This document shows positions 433-8,887 of a stretch of DNA of 10,639 nt, in pieces (position 1 is the first letter of the stretch; the number at the start of each line of letters is the position of its first letter). The position numbers were made by a program, and so were the translations under genes. Origin of the DNA: Pseudomonadota bacterium (GTDB lineage: Bacteria; Pseudomonadota; Gammaproteobacteria; Burkholderiales; SG8-39). The notes beneath the pieces are model-generated. The model was not told the origin of the DNA, searched no databases, and saw only the letters and a program-made list of their open reading frames with translations. The stretch lies in assembly GCA_021825225.1 (NCBI GenBank), contig JAKAIH010000044.1, positions 1 through 10,639 of the forward strand, in the 5' to 3' direction.

Positions 433-477
433 CATTCACGCCGGCGTCGACGAACTGTCATTTTCCAGCGCTATCCT
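433..477 (+). promoter_or_regulatory. Candidate tandem Pho box and promoter for olsA
   Basis: Three 7-bp half-sites spaced 11 bp apart start at 433 (CATTCAC), 444 (GCGTCGA) and 455 (CTGTCAT). The last is a perfect match to the E. coli Pho half-site CTGTCAT. Ten bases after it lies TATCCT (472-477), a 4/6 match to the -10 hexamer. Ten bases between Pho box and -10 is the arrangement known from phoA-type promoters. A start near 484 would leave a leader of about 60 nt before the olsA ATG at 544. The middle half-site is poor (core GTC only). The rest of 301-543 shows nothing else convincing. Confidence 0.45.
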
Positions 478-543
478 GGGCTTCCCGCGGCGGACCGGCG
501 AACGCGGTGTCGGCCGCGATCCGGCATGCATCAGGAGCAGACC

Positions 544-1407
544 ATGGTCGAGCAAGACAGCCGCTTTGAGCGCGCCGCGCGGGCCGGCACTTCGCCGCCT
601 GACGCAACGGGCGACCGAAGCCTGGAGCACGGCACCGGCCATGTCGTCCGCGCGGTCCGCATGCTGCGCCTCGGTCTGCATCTGGCGCGCGGCGTCTGGC
701 TCGCGGCGCTGGTATATCCGCATTGCCCGCCCGAGCGGCAGCACGCGATGATTCAAGACTGGTCGAGACGCCTGCTGCATATCCTCAACATCGAACTGCG
801 CTGCTACGGCCAGCCGAGCGCGCTGCCGGCGAAATGCCTGCTGGTAGCGAACCATGTTTCCTGGCTCGACATCTTCGCCATCAGTGCGGTGTTCCCCGCG
901 ACCTTTGTTGCCAAGGCTGAAGTACGCGGCTGGCCTTTCGTCGGAACGATATGCGAGCGGACCGGAACCATATTCGTCGATCGCGGCAGCGCGCGCGGCG
1001 CACGCCGCGCGAACCGTGAAATTGCGCATGCGCTCGATCGGGGAGCGCGGCCGGTGGTGGTCTACCCGGAGGGAACGACCACCCTGGGGGCCGGACTCAT
1101 GCCGTTCCGCCCCGCGCTGCTGCAATCGGCGGTGGACACCGCTGCGTCGGTGCGCCCGCTGGCGCTGCGCTACGTCGACCCTCAGGGCGCGCGCACCGAG
1201 GCGCCGGCCTGGGTCGGCGACGCCACTTTGCTCGACTCGATAATCGCGCTGGTGAAGCTGCCCGGGATCGTGCTCGAGTTGCACTTTCTCGCGGCGTGGT
1301 CCGGCGGCGGCCATACGCGCGCTGAAATCGCAATACGGGCGCAGACGGTCATTGCGCGCGCGCTCGGAATCGAGAGCGAGCCTGCGCCTTGCGCGGAATC
1401 GGCCTGA
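544..1407 (+). CDS. olsA: Lyso-ornithine lipid O-acyltransferase (PlsC/LPLAT family)
   Basis: Membrane-associated acyltransferase expected to put the second (ester-linked) fatty acid on lyso-ornithine lipid, using acyl-ACP. Seen in 287 residues: the family motif I HVSWLD (His104, Asp109; HX4D), substrate-binding block FVAKAEVRGWPFVG (121-134), and motif III VVVYPEGTTT (171-180, Glu176). A hydrophobic segment near 40-60 may anchor it. The start at 544 is chosen because AGGAG at 533-537 sits 6 nt upstream; an in-frame ATG at 526 is possible but has no ribosome site. The open frame continues far upstream only because of high GC. The PlsC family also includes the glycerolipid enzyme 1-acylglycerol-3-phosphate acyltransferase, so family membership alone does not settle the substrate. 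The OlsB-like gene directly downstream makes OlsA the better reading. Confidence is high for the family, about 0.75 for olsA. Confidence 0.85.
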   Translation: MVEQDSRFERAARAGTSPPDATGDRSLEHGTGHVVRAVRMLRLGLHLARGVWLAALVYPHCPPERQHAMIQDWSRRLLHILNIELRCYGQPSALPAKCLLVANHVSWLDIFAISAVFPATFVAKAEVRGWPFVGTICERTGTIFVDRGSARGARRANREIAHALDRGARPVVVYPEGTTTLGAGLMPFRPALLQSAVDTAASVRPLALRYVDPQGARTEAPAWVGDATLLDSIIALVKLPGIVLELHFLAAWSGGGHTRAEIAIRAQTVIARALGIESEPAPCAESA

Positions 1408-1468
1408 TTCCAAGGCGCGACCATGCCAGCCGCGGCGCGGGCCTGATGGTAAGGAAAACTTAACTTTG

Positions 1469-1502
1469 CGGTCACGCCGGCGTAATGCCGCACTCCTAAA
1501 TT
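1469..1502 (+). promoter_or_regulatory. Candidate Pho box and promoter for olsB
   Basis: In the 127-nt gap between olsA and olsB, CGGTCAC (1469-1475) and GCGTAAT (1480-1486) form an 11-bp-spaced pair matching the Pho box CTGTCAT-N4-CTGTCAY at about 6/7 and 4/7. Exactly 10 nt later is TAAATT (1497-1502), 4/6 to TATAAT. A start near 1509 would give a leader of about 25 nt, with the ribosome site GGGGGA (1525-1530) in place. It implies that olsB can be transcribed independently of olsA. Confidence 0.45.
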
Positions 1503-1534
1503 GGCTTCCGCATTCATCACCTATGGGGGAAGCG

Positions 1535-2293
1535 ATGCTAAACCGTGAACTGCAAGGTGTGAGCAAGCCGCGGCGCAGCTTGAGTGTGGGCTTGGCGCGT
1601 AACGAAAATGAAATCGTCGAGGCGCAGCGCCTGCGTTATGCGGTATTTGCCGGGGAAATGGGGGCGCACATCGAGACCGGCCGCCCCGGCGTCGATCACG
1701 ATCGATTCGATGCGCACTGCGAGCACCTGCTGGTGCGCGATGCCGAGACGAACGAAGTGGTGGGAACCTACCGCATTCTGCCGCCGCGCAACGCCGATCG
1801 CATCGGCAGCTATTACTCGGAGCAGGAGTTCGATCTGGCGCGCCTTGCGCACCTGCGCCACAATCTCGTGGAAGTCGGGCGTTCCTGCATTCGCTCGGAC
1901 TACCGTTCCGGCGGCACGATTTTGCTGCTGTGGGCGGGACTGGCGCGTTACATGATGGAGAACCATTACGAGCACATGATCGGCTGCGCCAGTCTGAGCA
2001 TGGGCGACGGCGGCCATGCCGCGGCATCGATTTACCGGCGCATCAAGGAGCGGCATTTGTGCCCGCTCGAATACCGCGCGTTTCCGCGCTGCCCGCTGCC
2101 GCTCGAGCGCCTCGACGCATCGCGCCAAGCGGACCTCCCGCCGCTGGTAAAAGGATACCTCAACGTCGGCGCCTGGATTTGCGGGGAACCGGCGTGGGAC
2201 CCGGACTTCAACGTCGCCGATTTGCTCATCCTGCTGCCGCTGGCCAACGTCAATGCGCGTTACGCGCAGCACTTTCTGGCGCAGGCCGCATGA
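1535..2293 (+). CDS. olsB: L-ornithine N-alpha-acyltransferase (GNAT-like, OlsB family)
   Basis: Catalyses the first step of ornithine-lipid synthesis: transfer of a 3-hydroxyacyl group from ACP to the alpha-amino group of ornithine, giving lyso-ornithine lipid for OlsA. Seen in 252 residues: a hemolysin-like acetyltransferase fold signature, with NEIVEAQRLRYAVFAGEMGA (25-44), the DHDRFDAHCEHLLV block (54-67), VVGTYRILPP (75-84), and LVEVGRSCIRSDYRSGGTI (111-129), the most conserved part of OlsB proteins. IGCASLSMGDGG follows at about 149-160. Length agrees with the family (about 250-300). Start 1535 is chosen because GGGGGA at 1525-1530 precedes it at proper distance; an in-frame ATG at 1523 lacks a ribosome site. 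It has its own candidate Pho promoter, and a terminator follows at 2400-2427. In Sinorhizobium OlsB is phosphate-regulated (family knowledge). The main alternative, a generic hemolysin-type acyltransferase, is unlikely beside olsA. Confidence 0.88.
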   Translation: MLNRELQGVSKPRRSLSVGLARNENEIVEAQRLRYAVFAGEMGAHIETGRPGVDHDRFDAHCEHLLVRDAETNEVVGTYRILPPRNADRIGSYYSEQEFDLARLAHLRHNLVEVGRSCIRSDYRSGGTILLLWAGLARYMMENHYEHMIGCASLSMGDGGHAAASIYRRIKERHLCPLEYRAFPRCPLPLERLDASRQADLPPLVKGYLNVGAWICGEPAWDPDFNVADLLILLPLANVNARYAQHFLAQAA

Positions 2294-2399
2294 GAGTGTT
2301 CAGAACCTGCAATTTCACCTGGATTCCAAGAAGAATGGCGGTTTGAGCGCCAACGATCACCGCCCTTCTTTCCTCTCCTCCTTGGGAGGGCGGAATTAC

Positions 2400-2427
2400 G
2401 CCGCGGCTTCGGCTGCGGCTTTTTTTT
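2400..2427 (+). terminator. Intrinsic terminator after olsB with UUCG tetraloop
   Basis: An 8-bp stem (2400-2407 with 2412-2419, one G-U pair) encloses the loop TTCG, an exceptionally stable tetraloop, and is followed directly by eight T (2420-2427). It lies 107 nt after the olsB stop and separates olsAB from the downstream genes. Just upstream, 2360-2366 and 2387-2393 (CCGCCCT / AGGGCGG) can form a further stem around a pyrimidine-rich loop. Nothing coding was found in 2294-2399. Confidence 0.9.
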
Positions 2428-2516
2428 GGGCACTATCGGCCGAAGTGCGACGGATCTGCGCGCCGCCGCCAAGGCGCGAGTGCGGAAACGGCAGCGGCGC
2501 CGGTCGGGATCGAGCG

Positions 2517-2550
2517 CCGTCATCTTCCCGTAACAAACTTCGTGTCAGAT
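2517..2550 (+). promoter_or_regulatory. Candidate Pho box upstream of the 82-aa gene
   Basis: CCGTCAT (2517-2523) and CCGTAAC (2528-2534) are two half-sites 11 bp apart, matching CTGTCAT and CTGTCAY at 6/7 and 5/7. The hexamer exactly 10 nt further is TCAGAT (2545-2550), only 3/6 to TATAAT, so the box is stronger than the -10. It sits 90 nt after the terminator, where a new transcription unit is expected. The leader to the ATG at 2776 would be about 220 nt and contains the dyad at 2616-2652. Confidence 0.4.
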
Positions 2551-2615
2551 CATTCTTTGAGCAGGAGCAAAAAACGCTTGCGCGTCGCCGGCTTGCGTGC
2601 CTGCAGCGAAGATGT

Positions 2616-2652
2616 GCACAGTTATATCCACAGAATCTGTGGACAATTGTGC
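2616..2652. repeat. Long interrupted inverted repeat containing two DnaA-box-like 9-mers
   Basis: Inner arms TCCACAG (2627-2633) and CTGTGGA (2637-2643) are perfect around AAT. Outer arms GCACAGTT (2616-2623) and AATTGTGC (2645-2652) pair with one G-U, leaving ATA against C as an internal loop. Two head-to-head 9-mers inside it, ATATCCACA (2624-2632) and TTGTCCACA on the other strand (2638-2646), each differ from the DnaA box TTATCCACA at one position. There is no T-run, so it is not a simple terminator. Function unknown: operator, leader RNA structure, or DnaA site. Confidence 0.6.
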
Positions 2653-2775
2653 GCGCGTCGCGCATTGCAGCCCTCGTAAGGAATTCGCGCCGTTCGCAGG
2701 ATGCTGCAGATGTCGCTCGGCGCGATGCTGCGACGCAGCGCGATGGCGGCGGATGGTCAGGCAAACGGAGGGGGC

Positions 2776-3024
2776 ATGAAAGAGATCAGGGTCACCGGCG
2801 CGCAGCACAAGGTATTGCGGATCCTTTCGCGCAAGGACATTTCCGCCATACGCAGAAATCCCAAACTCATCGCGGGCGCGAAGCATTTGCTGCTCGCATG
2901 CAAGAAGACCATCAGGAAAGTCGAGGAAATCCCGCAGTACGCCTCGCGCAGGAAGCGCGAGACCGCCTACCGGCGCATCGTCGCGCTTTGCCGCAAGGCG
3001 ATAGCCGAGATCGAGCACAGTTAG
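2776..3024 (+). CDS. Small, highly basic protein of unknown function (82 aa)
   Basis: Not recognised. The ATG at 2776 is preceded by GGAGGGGG (2767-2774), a strong ribosome site; an in-frame ATG at 2701 would add 25 residues but has only a weak AGG before it. The protein has about 22 Lys/Arg against 7 Asp/Glu, no signal peptide and no membrane segment. Residues 30-50 (LIAGAKHLLLACKKTIRKVE) and 65-80 (YRRIVALCRKAIAEIE) look like amphipathic helices. It could bind nucleic acid or an acidic membrane surface; this is a guess from charge only. It lies downstream of the 2517 Pho-like box and upstream of the methyltransferase remnant and plcP. Confidence 0.6.
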   Translation: MKEIRVTGAQHKVLRILSRKDISAIRRNPKLIAGAKHLLLACKKTIRKVEEIPQYASRRKRETAYRRIVALCRKAIAEIEHS

Positions 3025-3069
3025 CCGCTTGTGCGCGAAATGCCGGTCGCCGGATTGCGCGCCGCCACG

Positions 3070-3087
3070 CGTTCACGCTGCTGTCAT
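3070..3087 (+). promoter_or_regulatory. Candidate Pho box before the methyltransferase remnant and plcP
   Basis: CGTTCAC (3070-3076) and CTGTCAT (3081-3087) are half-sites 11 bp apart, about 5/7 and a perfect 7/7 against the E. coli Pho consensus. It is the best-matching box in the window. Unlike the others, the hexamer 10 nt downstream (TGACGC, 3098-3103) is a poor -10, so a promoter here is uncertain. It lies 35 nt before the truncated front of the methyltransferase frame and about 410 nt before plcP. Confidence 0.35.
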
Positions 3088-3121
3088 GCAGGCGCGCTGA
3101 CGCTGCGCGCGCTGGCCCGGC

Positions 3122-3496
3122 GTGGCCGTTACGGTCGAGGCCGACGCCACCAGCTACCGCCCGGCGCAGCCTGTCGACTGCGTCTACTTCTCCTACGCGC
3201 TTACCATGATTCCGGACTGGCGCGCCGCCGTCGACAACGCGCTCGCCATGCTGCGCCCGGGCGGCTTGCTGGGAGCGGTCGATTTCTACGCCGCGCCGCA
3301 CCACGCCGGCCGCGCGCGCAGTTTCTGGCGGCGCTGGTTCAGGCACGACGGCGTGCACCTCGATCCCGGGCATCTGCCTTATCTGCTAGAGCATACCGAA
3401 CCGGTTTGCTGCGAGGAACGCCGTGCCGGCGTGCCTTACCTGCCCGGACTGCGGGTGCCCTATTATCTTTTCATCGGGCGCAAGCCAGCCCCCTAG
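3122..3496 (+). pseudogene. Remnant of a BtaB-like diacylglyceryl-homoserine N-methyltransferase (C-terminal half)
   Basis: BtaB methylates diacylglyceryl-homoserine three times with SAM to give the betaine lipid DGTS. Seen: an open frame of about 124 codons from a GTG at 3122 encoding VDCVYFSYALTMIPDW, LRPGGLLGAVDFY, then FWRRWF, and ending VPYYLFIGRKP. That order (FSY-LTMIPD, VDFY, PYY-F-G) matches the methyltransferase half of BtaB/BTA1 proteins as remembered. The SAM-binding glycine-rich motif I and everything before it are missing. An in-frame TGA stands at 3098-3100 and no ribosome site precedes 3122. The other forward frame just upstream reads LRALARRG at about 3100-3121, which would continue naturally into VAVTVEADAT, hinting at a frameshift. 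It stops 2 nt before the plcP ATG, consistent with a former btaB-plcP operon. A short translated protein cannot be excluded. Confidence 0.65.
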
Positions 3497-3498
3497 CC

Positions 3499-4320
3499 AT
3501 GCACCGGGTACGGTCGATTTTTCTCTCCGACATCCATCTCGGCACCCGCGCCTGCCAGGCCGAACGCCTGCTCGACTTTCTGCGCACCTACGACGCCGAA
3601 TATGTGTATCTGCTCGGCGACATCGTCGATTTCTGGTCGCTGCGGCGCGGCATCTACTGGCCGGCGCCGCACAACACCTTCGTGCAAAAGATGTTGAAGC
3701 GCGCGCGCCACGAGGTAAAGGTGGTGCTGGTGCCGGGCAATCACGACGAGGCCCTGCGCGAATATGCCGGCAGCGAGTTCGGCGATATCCGCGTGCTGAA
3801 AGAGGCGGTCCATGCTGCGGCCGACGGCCGGCGCTATCTGCTGATGCACGGCGACGAATTCGATCAGGTCACGCGCTATCACCGCTGGGTGGCGCTGTCG
3901 GGCGACTTCGCCTACGGCCTGCTGCTGCGCCTCAACGGACTCCTGTCCTGGATCAGGAGGAAATTGCATCTGAGCGGCTATTGGTCGCTGGCGGGCTATG
4001 CCAAGCGCAGGCTCAAGGGAGCGCTAGAGTTCATATACGGCTTCGAGGAATCGGTGGCGCACCACGTGCGCCAGATGGGATTGGACGGGGTCGTCTGCGG
4101 CCATATTCACAGCGCGGCCATCAAGTCCATCGGCGGCATCACCTACATCAACTGCGGCGACTGGGTCGACAGTTGCACCGCCATCGTCGAACACGCGGAC
4201 GGACGCATGGAACTGGTGCACTGGCGCGAAAGCGAAGCGCCGGAAGTGGAATTGCTGCAGGAAACCGCTGCGGTGGAATCGTCACAACTGGCGCGGGTAC
4301 TGCCGCTGCAGCGGCGCTGA
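3499..4320 (+). CDS. plcP: PlcP-type phospholipase C (calcineurin-like metallophosphoesterase, LpxH-related)
   Basis: Predicted intracellular phosphodiesterase that splits phospholipid head groups, giving diacylglycerol for phosphorus-free lipids and a phosphate ester for reuse. Seen in 273 residues: the full dimetal set LSDIHLG (Asp11, His13), LLGDIVDFW (Asp41), VPGNHDE (Asn81, His82), LMHGDEFD (His117) and CGHIHS (His202, His204). No signal peptide. The middle segment 135-190 is longer than a bare phosphoesterase core, as in the UDP-2,3-diacylglucosamine hydrolase-like proteins. PlcP of Sinorhizobium (SMc00171) was annotated that way before its role was shown. The start at 3499 directly follows the methyltransferase stop (2-nt gap) and has no clear ribosome site, suggesting translation coupled to the upstream frame. 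LpxH-like activity in lipid A synthesis is the main alternative; context with olsAB and the btaB remnant favours PlcP. Confidence 0.75.
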   Translation: MHRVRSIFLSDIHLGTRACQAERLLDFLRTYDAEYVYLLGDIVDFWSLRRGIYWPAPHNTFVQKMLKRARHEVKVVLVPGNHDEALREYAGSEFGDIRVLKEAVHAAADGRRYLLMHGDEFDQVTRYHRWVALSGDFAYGLLLRLNGLLSWIRRKLHLSGYWSLAGYAKRRLKGALEFIYGFEESVAHHVRQMGLDGVVCGHIHSAAIKSIGGITYINCGDWVDSCTAIVEHADGRMELVHWRESEAPEVELLQETAAVESSQLARVLPLQRR

Positions 4321-4387
4321 CGCGCTCGGCCGCCCGGAATCTGTTTGACCGCTGCGCACGGGTGCTGCAGCGCACGCCGGCGCAAAC

Positions 4388-4432
4388 AATTCACACTTCC
4401 GTCAACGCCGCGTAATTTTCCCGAGCTATCTT
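4388..4432 (+). promoter_or_regulatory. Candidate tandem Pho box and promoter for the 102-aa gene
   Basis: Three half-sites with 11-bp period begin at 4388 (AATTCAC), 4399 (CCGTCAA) and 4410 (GCGTAAT). Exactly 10 nt after the last one is TATCTT (4427-4432), 4/6 to TATAAT. The 10-nt spacer and -10 resemble those before olsA (TTTCCNGNGC then TATCYT). A start near 4439 gives a leader of about 60 nt. The preceding 4321-4387 shows no clear terminator for plcP. Confidence 0.45.
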
Positions 4433-4499
4433 GAATCCTGTGCGGCGGACCTGGGGCGGCCCGCCTTGGGTACGAAGCAATATGCAGGAGGAAATGATC

Positions 4500-4808
4500 A
4501 TGATAGACCAGGAAATGGATTCGCCGATTCCCGAGCGCCTGGACCGGTTGGAGCGGCCTGCCGATATCGAGCAGGCCCTGGCGGCGATAGTAGCAACGAC
4601 CCGGCGCGAGTGGATGTCGGCGCAGCCCTCTGCGCAAGCGCCCGATGACACCACGGTCAAGCGCGCCCGGCTCGCGCACCCCTTGATCAGATTTGCGCTG
4701 GATGCAAAGCGCAGCACTGCCTGGCGTTTGCGCGTCGGCCGGCAGGCGTGGATCCAGAGCGTGGTGCAGTTTGCGGAATTGGATCGCACGCCGGAGGGCA
4801 CGTCCTAG
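4500..4808 (+). CDS. Small protein of unknown function (102 aa)
   Basis: Not recognised. The ATG at 4500 lies 8 nt after a very strong ribosome site AGGAGG (4486-4491). The in-frame ATG at 4494 is too close to it, so 4500 is chosen. The N-terminal 25 residues are acidic (MIDQEMDSPIPERLDRLERP), the centre holds a helix-like DIEQALAAIVATTRREW (22-38), a Pro/Ala/Gln linker follows, and the C-terminal half is basic with three Trp in the whole protein. No signal peptide or membrane span. It is transcribed alone, downstream of a Pho-like promoter, and convergent with pit (88-nt gap). The strong translation signal and promoter argue for a real gene; function open. Confidence 0.65.
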   Translation: MIDQEMDSPIPERLDRLERPADIEQALAAIVATTRREWMSAQPSAQAPDDTTVKRARLAHPLIRFALDAKRSTAWRLRVGRQAWIQSVVQFAELDRTPEGTS

Positions 4809-6720: not shown

Positions 6721-8808
6721 TCACTCGCGCGCGAGTTCGCCCAGCAGCGACTGTTGCGCCGATCGCGGCAGGGTGCCGCGGGAGTTCTTGCGCTTGTATA
6801 CGCCGTCGCCGTCCATGTCCCAGGCCTGGCGGTTGTCGCGCAGATACGGCATCAGCCCTTCCTTGATCACGCGCTGCCTGAGTTTTTTGTCGAGCACGGG
6901 GAAGCACAACTCGACGCGGCGGAAGAAATTGCGGTCCATCCAGTCGGCGCTCGAAAGATACACGTTCTCCTTGCCGCCGTTGAGGAAATAGAAAATGCGC
7001 GTGTGTTCGAGAAAGCGGCCGACGATGGAGCGCACGCGGATGCCTTCCGAGAGCGCGGGGACGCCAGGGCGCAGCGCGCATACGCCGCGCACGATCAGGT
7101 CGATGCGCACGCCCGCCTGCGAGGCGGTGTACAGCGCTTCGATCACCGTCGGCTCGAGCAGGGCATTCATCTTGGCGATGATGCGCGCGGGCTTGCCCGC
7201 CTTGGCGAGCCGGGTTTCGTTCTTGATCGCGGCCATGACGTTCGCGTGCAGGGTGAACGGCGCCTGCCACAGATGGTGCAGCATTCCGGCCTTGCCCAGG
7301 CCGGTCAGCTGCTTGAACACTTCGTTGACGTCGGCGCAAACGTCGGCGTTGCAGGTGAACAGGCCGAAATCGGTGTACAGGCGCGCGGTGCGCGCATGAT
7401 AATTGCCGGTCCCCAGGTGCACGTAGCGGCGCAGCTTGCCGTCCTCGCGCCGCACCACCAACGCCATCTTGGCATGGGTCTTGTGCGCGACCACGCCGTA
7501 GACCACGTGCGCGCCGACCTCTTCCAGCCGCTCGGCCCAGTTGATGTTGGCTTCTTCTTCGAAGCGCGCCATCAGTTCGACCACCACCGTCACCTCCTTG
7601 CCGCTGGCGGCCGCGTCGATCAGGGCTTCCATGATGGCGGAGTCGGTGCCGATGCGGTAGACGGTTTGCTTGATCGCGACCACTTGCGGGTCCTGCGCCG
7701 CCTCCTGGATGAAATTGACCACCGGCGTGAACGACTGGAATGGATGGTGCAGCAGCACGTCGCTTTTGCGCACCGCGGCGAAGATGTTGGAGCGTTTTTC
7801 CAGGGCCGCGGGACGGCCGGGACGGAAAGCGGGAAACTGAAGGTCGGGGCGGTTGACCAGATCGGGGATCTGCATCAGTCGGACCAGATTTACCGGCCCG
7901 TTGACCTGATACAGATCCTCGGCGCCGAGTTCGGTCTGCTGCAGCAGGAATTCGGCCATGGCCTGGGTGCAGTTGTCGGCGACTTCGAGACGCACCGCGG
8001 CGCCGAGGTTGCGCTGCGGCAGTTCGCCCTGCAGCGCGGTGCGCAGGTTCTTCACTTCCTCCTCGTCCACGAACAGATCGCTGTTGCGGGTCACGCGGAA
8101 CTGGTAGCAGCCGCGCACGCTCATGCCGGCGAACAGTTCGGACGCGTGTTCGTGCAGCACGGACGAAAGGAACACGAAGCTCTGCTCCTTGCCCTGGCGC
8201 AGTTCGCGCGGCAGCTTGATCATGCGCGGCAGGATGCGCGGTGCCTGGACGATGGCGGCGCGTGAGGCGCGGCCGAAGGCATCGCGCCCCTCCAGCTCCA
8301 CCGCGAAATTCAGGCTCTTGTTGAACACGCGCGGGAAGGGGTGCGCCGGGTCCAGGCCGATCGGCGTGAGCACCGGCATCATTTCATTGAAGAAGTACTC
8401 GCGGACCCAGGTGCGCTGCGCTTCGTTGAGGTCGTTGCGGCGCAGGAAGCGCACACCGGCCTTTTCCAGTTCCGGCAGGATATTTTCGTTGAGCAGCCGG
8501 TACTGGCGCTCCACCAGTTCGTGCGCGATGCGGCTGACGGCGCCAAAAACCTCGCGCGGATTCATCCCGTCGCGTCCCGCGGCGGATACATTGACGCGGA
8601 TCGTTTCCTTGAGTTCGGCGACGCGAATCTCGAAGAATTCATCCAGATTGCTGCTGACGATGCAAAGAAAGCGCAGGCGTTCGAGCAGCGGCGTGTCCGC
8701 GTCCTCGGCCTGCGCCAGCACGCGGCGGTTGAATTCGAGGATGCCGATTTCCCGGTTGAGGAACAGCGCCTGCGTGGGGAGCATTGAGGCTTTCTTGTTG
8801 AAATACAT
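6721..8808 (-). CDS. ppk: Polyphosphate kinase 1
   Basis: Reversibly polymerises the gamma-phosphate of ATP into inorganic polyphosphate, the cell's phosphate store. Seen in 695 residues (family about 690): N-terminal domain with FLNREIGILEFNRRVL (16-31) and FLCIVSSNLDEFFEIRVAEL (48-67), middle head domain with LTPIGLDPAHPFPR (147-160), then two PLD-like catalytic domains. His445 in KTHAKMAL corresponds to the autophosphorylated His435 of E. coli, and His602 in LEHTRIFYF to His592. GTGNYHARTARLYTDFG (467-483) and VYLSSADWMDRNFFRRVE (616-633) are further signatures. The start at 8808 has only AGG close by; Met9 (8784) is an alternative with no better site. It is divergent from phoU across a 118-nt gap. 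No key residue is missing. Confidence 0.97.
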   Translation of the reverse strand: MYFNKKASMLPTQALFLNREIGILEFNRRVLAQAEDADTPLLERLRFLCIVSSNLDEFFEIRVAELKETIRVNVSAAGRDGMNPREVFGAVSRIAHELVERQYRLLNENILPELEKAGVRFLRRNDLNEAQRTWVREYFFNEMMPVLTPIGLDPAHPFPRVFNKSLNFAVELEGRDAFGRASRAAIVQAPRILPRMIKLPRELRQGKEQSFVFLSSVLHEHASELFAGMSVRGCYQFRVTRNSDLFVDEEEVKNLRTALQGELPQRNLGAAVRLEVADNCTQAMAEFLLQQTELGAEDLYQVNGPVNLVRLMQIPDLVNRPDLQFPAFRPGRPAALEKRSNIFAAVRKSDVLLHHPFQSFTPVVNFIQEAAQDPQVVAIKQTVYRIGTDSAIMEALIDAAASGKEVTVVVELMARFEEEANINWAERLEEVGAHVVYGVVAHKTHAKMALVVRREDGKLRRYVHLGTGNYHARTARLYTDFGLFTCNADVCADVNEVFKQLTGLGKAGMLHHLWQAPFTLHANVMAAIKNETRLAKAGKPARIIAKMNALLEPTVIEALYTASQAGVRIDLIVRGVCALRPGVPALSEGIRVRSIVGRFLEHTRIFYFLNGGKENVYLSSADWMDRNFFRRVELCFPVLDKKLRQRVIKEGLMPYLRDNRQAWDMDGDGVYKRKNSRGTLPRSAQQSLLGELARE

Positions 8809-8821
8809 AGCCTAAGCTTTG

Positions 8822-8863
8822 AATGTTGCAGCAATATTACCCGATTCGAAGGGGAGCAACATT
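8822..8863. repeat. Inverted repeat in the ppk/phoU divergent promoter region
   Basis: AATGTTGC (8822-8829) and GCAACATT (8856-8863) are perfect 8-bp inverted copies with 26 nt between them. The left arm overlaps a second small palindrome (TTGC-A-GCAA, 8827-8835). It lies between the divergent ppk and phoU starts, so it may be an operator or a hairpin in the ppk leader. There is no T-run. Confidence 0.45.
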
Positions 8864-8887
8864 GTTGTCATATTGGTTTGCTAGCAT
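8854..8887 (+). promoter_or_regulatory. Weak Pho-box-like promoter candidate for phoU
   Basis: TTGTCAT (8865-8871) matches the Pho half-site at 6/7, but the partner 11 bp upstream (GAGCAAC) is poor. Ten nt after the half-site is TAGCAT (8882-8887), 4/6 to TATAAT. The geometry equals that of the boxes before olsA, olsB and the 102-aa gene, which is the main reason to list it. A start near 8894 would give a leader of about 33 nt. Confidence 0.28.

Follow-up and report, generated by a model that had tools for sequence, protein, structure and literature searches.

Pho boxes have been described in several systems close to the locus considered here. According to passages of two papers on Escherichia coli, the PHO box is built of 11-bp direct repeats, each with seven conserved (CTGTCAT) and four variable bases, multiple boxes are found at ugp (PMC4415409), and an extra half-site adjoins the box of phoB (PMC6194859). 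Portions of a study of Burkholderia sensu lato report predicted 18-bp Pho boxes before the ornithine lipid gene olsB in 21 of 43 genomes, or in 43 of 43 by a second matrix, and mention, with the data not shown there, a low-phosphate swap of phosphatidylethanolamine for ornithine lipids in P. xenovorans (PMC7814305). Marine plcP clusters with putative Pho boxes, one type of which includes btaAB, are described in excerpts of a further paper (PMC4796936). Here we analyze a stretch of 10,639 nucleotides from an uncultured bacterium of the Burkholderiales lineage SG8-39 (assembly GCA_021825225.1, contig JAKAIH010000044.1, the whole of which is hereafter called the window) that, to judge from its sequence, is very probably a PhoB-type phosphate-starvation island with about seven independent promoters, one of them decayed. 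An initial annotation of the same letters had pointed to Pho boxes at five sites; this observation is well supported and describes a known kind of Pho regulon island, to which some new detail can be added.

As in Burkholderia sensu lato, Pho boxes are found upstream of olsB; compared with the passages of that study, the window differs in having two tandem boxes (four half-sites), a fixed -10 hexamer and neighboring Pho promoters. With the marine clusters, as the excerpts present them, the locus shares plcP next to btaA/btaB and putative Pho boxes, whereas here the hosts are betaproteobacterial metagenome-assembled genomes (MAGs) and the island includes olsAB, ppk, phoU, two orphan small genes (denoted smallA and smallB) and an eroded btaAB. 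The 11-bp direct repeats and the multiple boxes or additional half-sites resemble the E. coli PHO box as described in those passages; in contrast, the half-sites here favor TGTMAY, and arrays of three and four units are conserved and specific to particular genes. None of the literature titles that we consulted concerns a four-unit olsB array.

Predicted Pho promoters of the window and of pstS

The metagenome assembly to which the window belongs, as contig C30, comprises 3.13 Mb in 544 contigs and is 84.7% complete; relatives are labeled G (genomes) and L (loci), and contigs of the same assembly C. The promoter matrix was derived from the regions upstream of pstS at the 30 best-matching loci (64 of the 97 family genomes have a match); it was seeded from an E. 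coli-like consensus and includes no window sequence. The box NTGTMAY-N4-NTGTMAY or a near form is present at all 30 loci (including the one from the same assembly; the matrix was fitted on these), so that pstS promoters consist of two half-sites. The hexamer TANNNT, which was not used in the fit, begins exactly 10 bp past the box in 26 of the 30, and none of 30 coding control stretches reaches 8 bits (this threshold and that of 5 bits were chosen by hand and are uncalibrated). The same box, N10 spacer and -10 hexamer as in the window are found at phoB (C112, the sole PhoB match over the curated cut-off) and pstS (C89) of the same assembly. A substrate-binding protein encoded on C116 was dropped as the pstS candidate, its locus (L001) reading as a tungstate-type transporter.

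All five gaps in which the initial annotation had seen CTGTCAT-like half-sites with an 11-bp period, at 433, 1469, 2517, 3070 and 4388, contain them, as they do the hexamers placed 10 bp past the box at four of these sites (all except 3070) and the variant CNGTCA-N6-CGTAA at 1469, 2517 and 4399 (Table 1). The 11-bp direct repeats of a 7-bp half-site are those expected of a PhoB-dependent promoter, and a -10 hexamer is found at N10 at 433, 1469, 4388, 8842 (minus strand) and 8854 and is missing at 3070. Each site was said to stand in front of a gene, which is true of four, the 3070 box preceding a gene remnant. At 2517 the spacing is as annotated but the role of the hexamer is doubtful, TCAGAT being poorly conserved as a -10; an alternative is CATTCT at N16 (2551-2556), and TATT-like letters lie 6 bp beyond the N10 hexamer in five smallA relatives.

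The window was scanned with a 34-base matrix (box, N10 and -10; the pstS site of the same assembly left out), with matches expected per window taken from 100 dinucleotide-shuffled windows. The top scores belong to 8842 on the minus strand (23.9 bits), 1469 (19.6 bits), 2517 and 8854 (17.1 bits each), all with 0.00 expected matches. Such a scan, proposed as a check in the initial annotation, upholds 1469 and 2517 and does not single out 433, 3070 and 4388 taken alone. The argument that five sites are hard to dismiss as chance thus stands by itself for the first two, and for the other three it needs conservation.

Alignment of the same gaps in relatives, likewise proposed, shows that the boxes are kept within the genus. 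G017 and G018, whose OlsB proteins are 85% and 82% identical, line up with the window at 433, 1469, 2517 and 4388, and the hexamers downstream of these sites align as well, with some changes; at 3070 the comparison is possible with G018 only. Matrices trained only on relatives (nine of ten non-window smallB-type promoters, four btaA-type and six smallA-type, the smallB promoter of G018 being placed by motif) were compared with 300 Markov-resampled windows. The smallB-type matrix ranks 4388 first (45.0 bits) and 433 second (33.7 bits), equaled in none of the 300. The btaA-type matrix places 3070 first (equaled in two null windows for the box only and in three with the -10), and the smallA-type matrix does the same for 2517 (three null windows). 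The weak sites 433, 3070 and 4388 are retained because these matrices and the alignments recover them.

Arrays at olsB, the small genes and ppk-phoU

The 1469 box is the end of a four-half-site array (1447-1486) that recurs in the order. We compiled 47 olsB upstream regions, 18 from the family and 29 from order-level loci (the best-scoring ones; 148 of 200 genomes have a match), and dropped three near-duplicates. In 40 of the resulting 44, olsB is preceded by a box of 5 bits or more (the misses are L117, L111, L050 and L053). Among these 40, a half-site is present at -22 in 32, at -11 in 32 and at both offsets in 30, compared with none of 40 at -33, none of 40 at +22 and 51 of 1800 at other offsets. 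In 68%, position 3 of the -11 unit is T instead of G. Of the 40 boxed promoters, 10 are without one or both outer units (e.g., L119, L122, L123, L128, L033 and L034). TANNNT is found in 36 of the 40, a dependent count given that the matrix by which the sites were picked itself includes the -10.

The promoters at 433 and 4388 share the box, letters of the leader and the gene, and on this comparison are evidently duplicate copies of one three-half-site cassette; the duplication explains part of the "identical geometry" noted initially. The three-unit pattern (AATTCAC, CCGTCAA, CTGTCAT or near forms) precedes all 11 copies of smallB and its paralogue smallB2 read in the genus, one of which is a partial gene; the orphaned 433 promoter, whose middle half-site is degenerate in the window (GCGTCGA vs CGTCAA in relatives), is additional to these. 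A weak smallB match beyond the genus (G077, L099) has no box of 5 bits. In G012 (L103:5873-5991), a smallB-type three-half-site promoter lies directly before smallA, apparently through a deletion.

Neither small protein matches Pfam or NCBIfam families. The 94 homologs of smallA, most of them 74-86% identical, and the 43 homologs of smallB all lack a precomputed Pfam domain. For smallA, five loci are in genome contigs, and the five named records, all of them MAGs, carry the titles Betaproteobacteria, Burkholderiales or Proteobacteria bacterium. Of the 97 family genomes, 8 have a smallB match, seven within the genus (7 of 13) and a weak one outside. Structure models are poor and too uncertain for use (mean predicted local distance difference test score of 65.5 for smallA and 61.1 for smallB). 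The 5' leader of smallB contains a GC-rich hairpin at 4441-4466 that is conserved in sequence. A conserved structure is not claimed, 312 of 500 shuffles reaching its covariation score; the hairpin has 89.3% of cells paired vs 21.4-53.6% when slid, and the z-scores obtained on folding seven leaders extend from -2.25 to +0.79.

The divergent pair of promoters between ppk and phoU was overlooked initially, and the finding was therefore understated in extent. In the four genus genomes that carry this phoU, the window among them, the reverse-strand box before ppk scores 10.1-23.9 bits (the weakest, at 10.1, in G017) and the phoU box 17.1-22.3 bits. As the listed ATG of ppk at 8808 lies immediately next to the -10 (8814-8809), translation probably begins instead at the Met of codon 9, near 8784. 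In L107, a plus-strand two-half-site box of 16.4 bits is found at 10833 in the interval between the DUF47 gene and ppk, where the window has one clear half-site.

The btaAB and smallB2 intervals

In G018 and in L107 (the G019 assembly, judged by contig coordinates), smallA is followed by a Pho box, btaA, btaB and plcP. In the window, the rear half of btaB and then plcP come after the 3070 box, btaA and the N-terminus of btaB are missing, and the same 84.7% complete assembly contains no btaA/BtaA (PF11899) match. Thus, instead of the intact BtaAB of betaine lipid synthesis, the window holds only the C-terminal remnant of btaB. A search of 13 genus genomes finds BtaA in two, G018 and G019. Of 20 btaA upstream regions, 16 carry a box scoring 8 bits or more, L107 and L142 among these representing a single locus; of the four without one, two have just 28% identity, and two further loci have no upstream sequence. 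The -10 of this promoter is TAACCT or TAATCT in G018, L107 and G012, TGACGC in the window and TGGCCT in G013, a genome without a BtaA match. By this comparison, the 3070 site appears to be the leftover btaA promoter after a joint deletion of btaA and the front of btaB. A different deletion inside btaA-btaB is seen in G012 (L103), and the interval between smallA and smallB in G017 contains neither btaAB nor plcP. The plcP gene comes after btaAB in G018, L107 and L053; a box directly before plcP was sought and rejected, none of six upstream regions having one of at least 8 bits.

A similar scar is seen upstream of olsA. In G017 and G018, smallB2 sits between the 433-type promoter and olsA, whereas in the window the start codon and about 13 codons of smallB2 run directly into olsA, which appears as a gap in the alignment with these two genomes. 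The first ~13 codons of olsA thus seem to be what is left of a smallB paralogue after its deletion.

Interpretation and gene content

We infer that the island responds to phosphate limitation through PhoB. At low phosphate, phosphorylated PhoB would bind the NTGTMAY direct repeats with their 11-bp period, replacing a -35 element, and recruit sigma-70 RNA polymerase to the -10 hexamer 10 bp downstream. Each of the seven promoters would drive its own target (olsA, olsB, smallA, the former btaA-btaB-plcP unit, smallB, ppk and phoU-ppx), as a result of which ornithine lipid might replace phospholipids, PlcP might free phosphate from phospholipid, and polyphosphate and Pho signaling might be reset. 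The initial proposal of several independent PhoB promoters, as opposed to one operon, is supported by the match to phoB and pstS of the same assembly, conservation in the genus and the phosphorus-free lipid genes.

Several observations weigh against this interpretation. By the pstS matrix, 4399 is weak as a two-half-site box (6.1 bits, 0.46 expected) and 444 does not reach significance (0.7 bits, 3.6 expected); nor does 3070 (11.0 bits and 0.60 expected for the box alone, -3.5 bits and 13.9 expected with the -10), and a site at 1597 within the olsB coding frame exceeds it on the box alone with 13.6 bits. The smallB copies of G018 and G012 remain below 5 bits by the pstS matrix, and the N10 hexamer before smallA has C at position 2 in all six genus sequences, window included. 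Genome-wide, SNGTCAN5SNGTMAY has 7 matches vs 7 for the reversed control, three of the seven being the window sites from which the pattern was derived, and GTMAYN6GTMAY has 16 vs 16, including two in the window and the phoB and pstS boxes of the same assembly; the patterns were dropped as evidence of enrichment, since a consensus no more common than its reversed control proves nothing alone, and it is position and conservation that carry the case. The results for 444, 3070 and 4399, the coding site at 1597 and the genome-wide patterns would fit chance matches, at some or all sites, selected by eye in GC-rich DNA, but such an origin is extremely improbable considering that the relatives-only matrices recover each site, that the footprints are conserved and that the olsB array recurs across the order. 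It is also highly unlikely that another regulator of the OmpR/PhoB family with similar half-sites binds here and that the genes answer to a signal other than phosphate: several OmpR-type regulators do score under the PhoB cut-off in this assembly, and half-sites at 433 and 4388 (CGTCAA, ATTCAC) depart from the pstS consensus, but motif and spacing are identical at phoB and pstS of the same assembly and at the 30 family pstS loci, and the targets are phosphate genes.

Also to be weighed against the PhoB island are the lack of a box of its own for plcP, which would be served here by the 3070 promoter that has lost its -10, and the limited reach of the ppk and phoU boxes, which beyond the genus are found at 8 bits or more before three of six ppk and two of four phoU genes (window included) and are not general. 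Furthermore, the deletions in the window rest on an incomplete metagenome assembly and could be artefacts. With 544 contigs and 84.7% completeness, the btaAB deletion and the smallB2-olsA fusion might be misassemblies of a mixed population in which two true arrangements were merged. This is unlikely, in view of the separate btaA-btaB deletion in another assembly (G012), the interval of G017 without btaAB and plcP, the restriction of BtaA to two of the 13 genus genomes searched, neither of them this one, and the decay of the -10 at 3098, as in G013, which lacks BtaA.

A more tentative and rather doubtful extension of the PhoB island is that the number and strength of half-sites form a conserved, gene-specific timing code, with smallA and smallB as helpers of the lipid step. 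Two strong half-sites would mark pstS, three the orphan small genes (smallB and its paralogue) and four olsB, with the second olsB unit held at the weak form TTCAC/TTAAC in most of the olsB promoters examined in the order. Cooperative filling of the longer arrays might then set the timing, making membrane-lipid replacement late and switch-like, and PhoB-driven smallA and smallB could be dedicated to this replacement. Promoters with two, three and four units, as they occur here in nature, are suited for testing whether array length orders the PhoB response. The promoter definition for this lineage (two NTGTMAY units at 11 bp, N10, TANNNT) can be used for scanning uncultured betaproteobacteria, two blank small protein families become tied to phosphate starvation, and the promoters kept at deletion scars show a way in which a Pho island shrinks.

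The genes were identified by homology (Table 1). The best NCBIfam matches of OlsA and OlsB are OlsA and OlsB models, all scoring under the equivalog cut-offs, and the product of plcP is assigned by context as a phospholipase C of lipid remodeling. The minus-strand gene that we take to be ppk and the plus-strand gene that we take to be ppx were named from their sequences alone.

Table 1. Predicted genes and Pho promoters of the window
Feature	Position	Strand	Sequence or basis
Thiolase	300-1	minus	Identity read from frame
Three-half-site Pho promoter, now before olsA	433..477	plus	CATTCAC 433-439, GCGTCGA 444-450, CTGTCAT 455-461; -10 TATCCT 472-477
olsA-like lyso-ornithine-lipid O-acyltransferase	544..1407	plus	PF01553, 4.7e-23; top NCBIfam matches are OlsA models, under cut-off
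Four-half-site Pho array before olsB	1447..1502	plus	Units at 1447, 1458, 1469 (CGGTCAC) and 1480 (GCGTAAT); -10 TAAATT 1497-1502
olsB-like ornithine N-acyltransferase	1535..2293	plus	PF13444, 7.8e-37; NCBIfam OlsB models to 1.5e-49, under equivalog cut-offs
Two-half-site Pho box before smallA	2517..2534	plus	CCGTCAT 2517, CCGTAAC 2528; TCAGAT at N10 (2545-2550)
smallA, 82-aa basic orphan protein	2776..3024	plus	No Pfam/NCBIfam match; homologs strongly alike
Putative relict btaA Pho promoter	3070..3103	plus	CGTTCAC 3070, CTGTCAT 3081; TGACGC (decayed) in -10 place at 3098
btaB (betaine-lipid methyltransferase), C-terminal remnant	3122..3496	plus	77% identity to G018 BtaB residues 96-241
plcP-like calcineurin-type phosphoesterase	3499..4320	plus	PF00149, 2.3e-12
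Three-half-site Pho promoter before smallB	4388..4432	plus	AATTCAC 4388, CCGTCAA 4399, GCGTAAT 4410; -10 TATCTT 4427-4432
smallB, ~102-aa orphan protein	4494..4808	plus	No family match; start at ATG 4500 in relatives
pit and PhoU_div/DUF47 gene	–	minus	Homology
ppk Pho promoter	8809..8842	minus	GGGTAAT-N4-CTGCAAC-N10-TAGGCT
Divergent phoU-ppx Pho promoter	8854..8887	plus	GAGCAAC-N4-TTGTCAT-N10-TAGCAT
phoU	Downstream of 8854 promoter	plus	Homology

In G018, the interval between olsB and smallA also contains a phasin-like gene (L048:7084-7734, read from sequence), which is missing there in the window.

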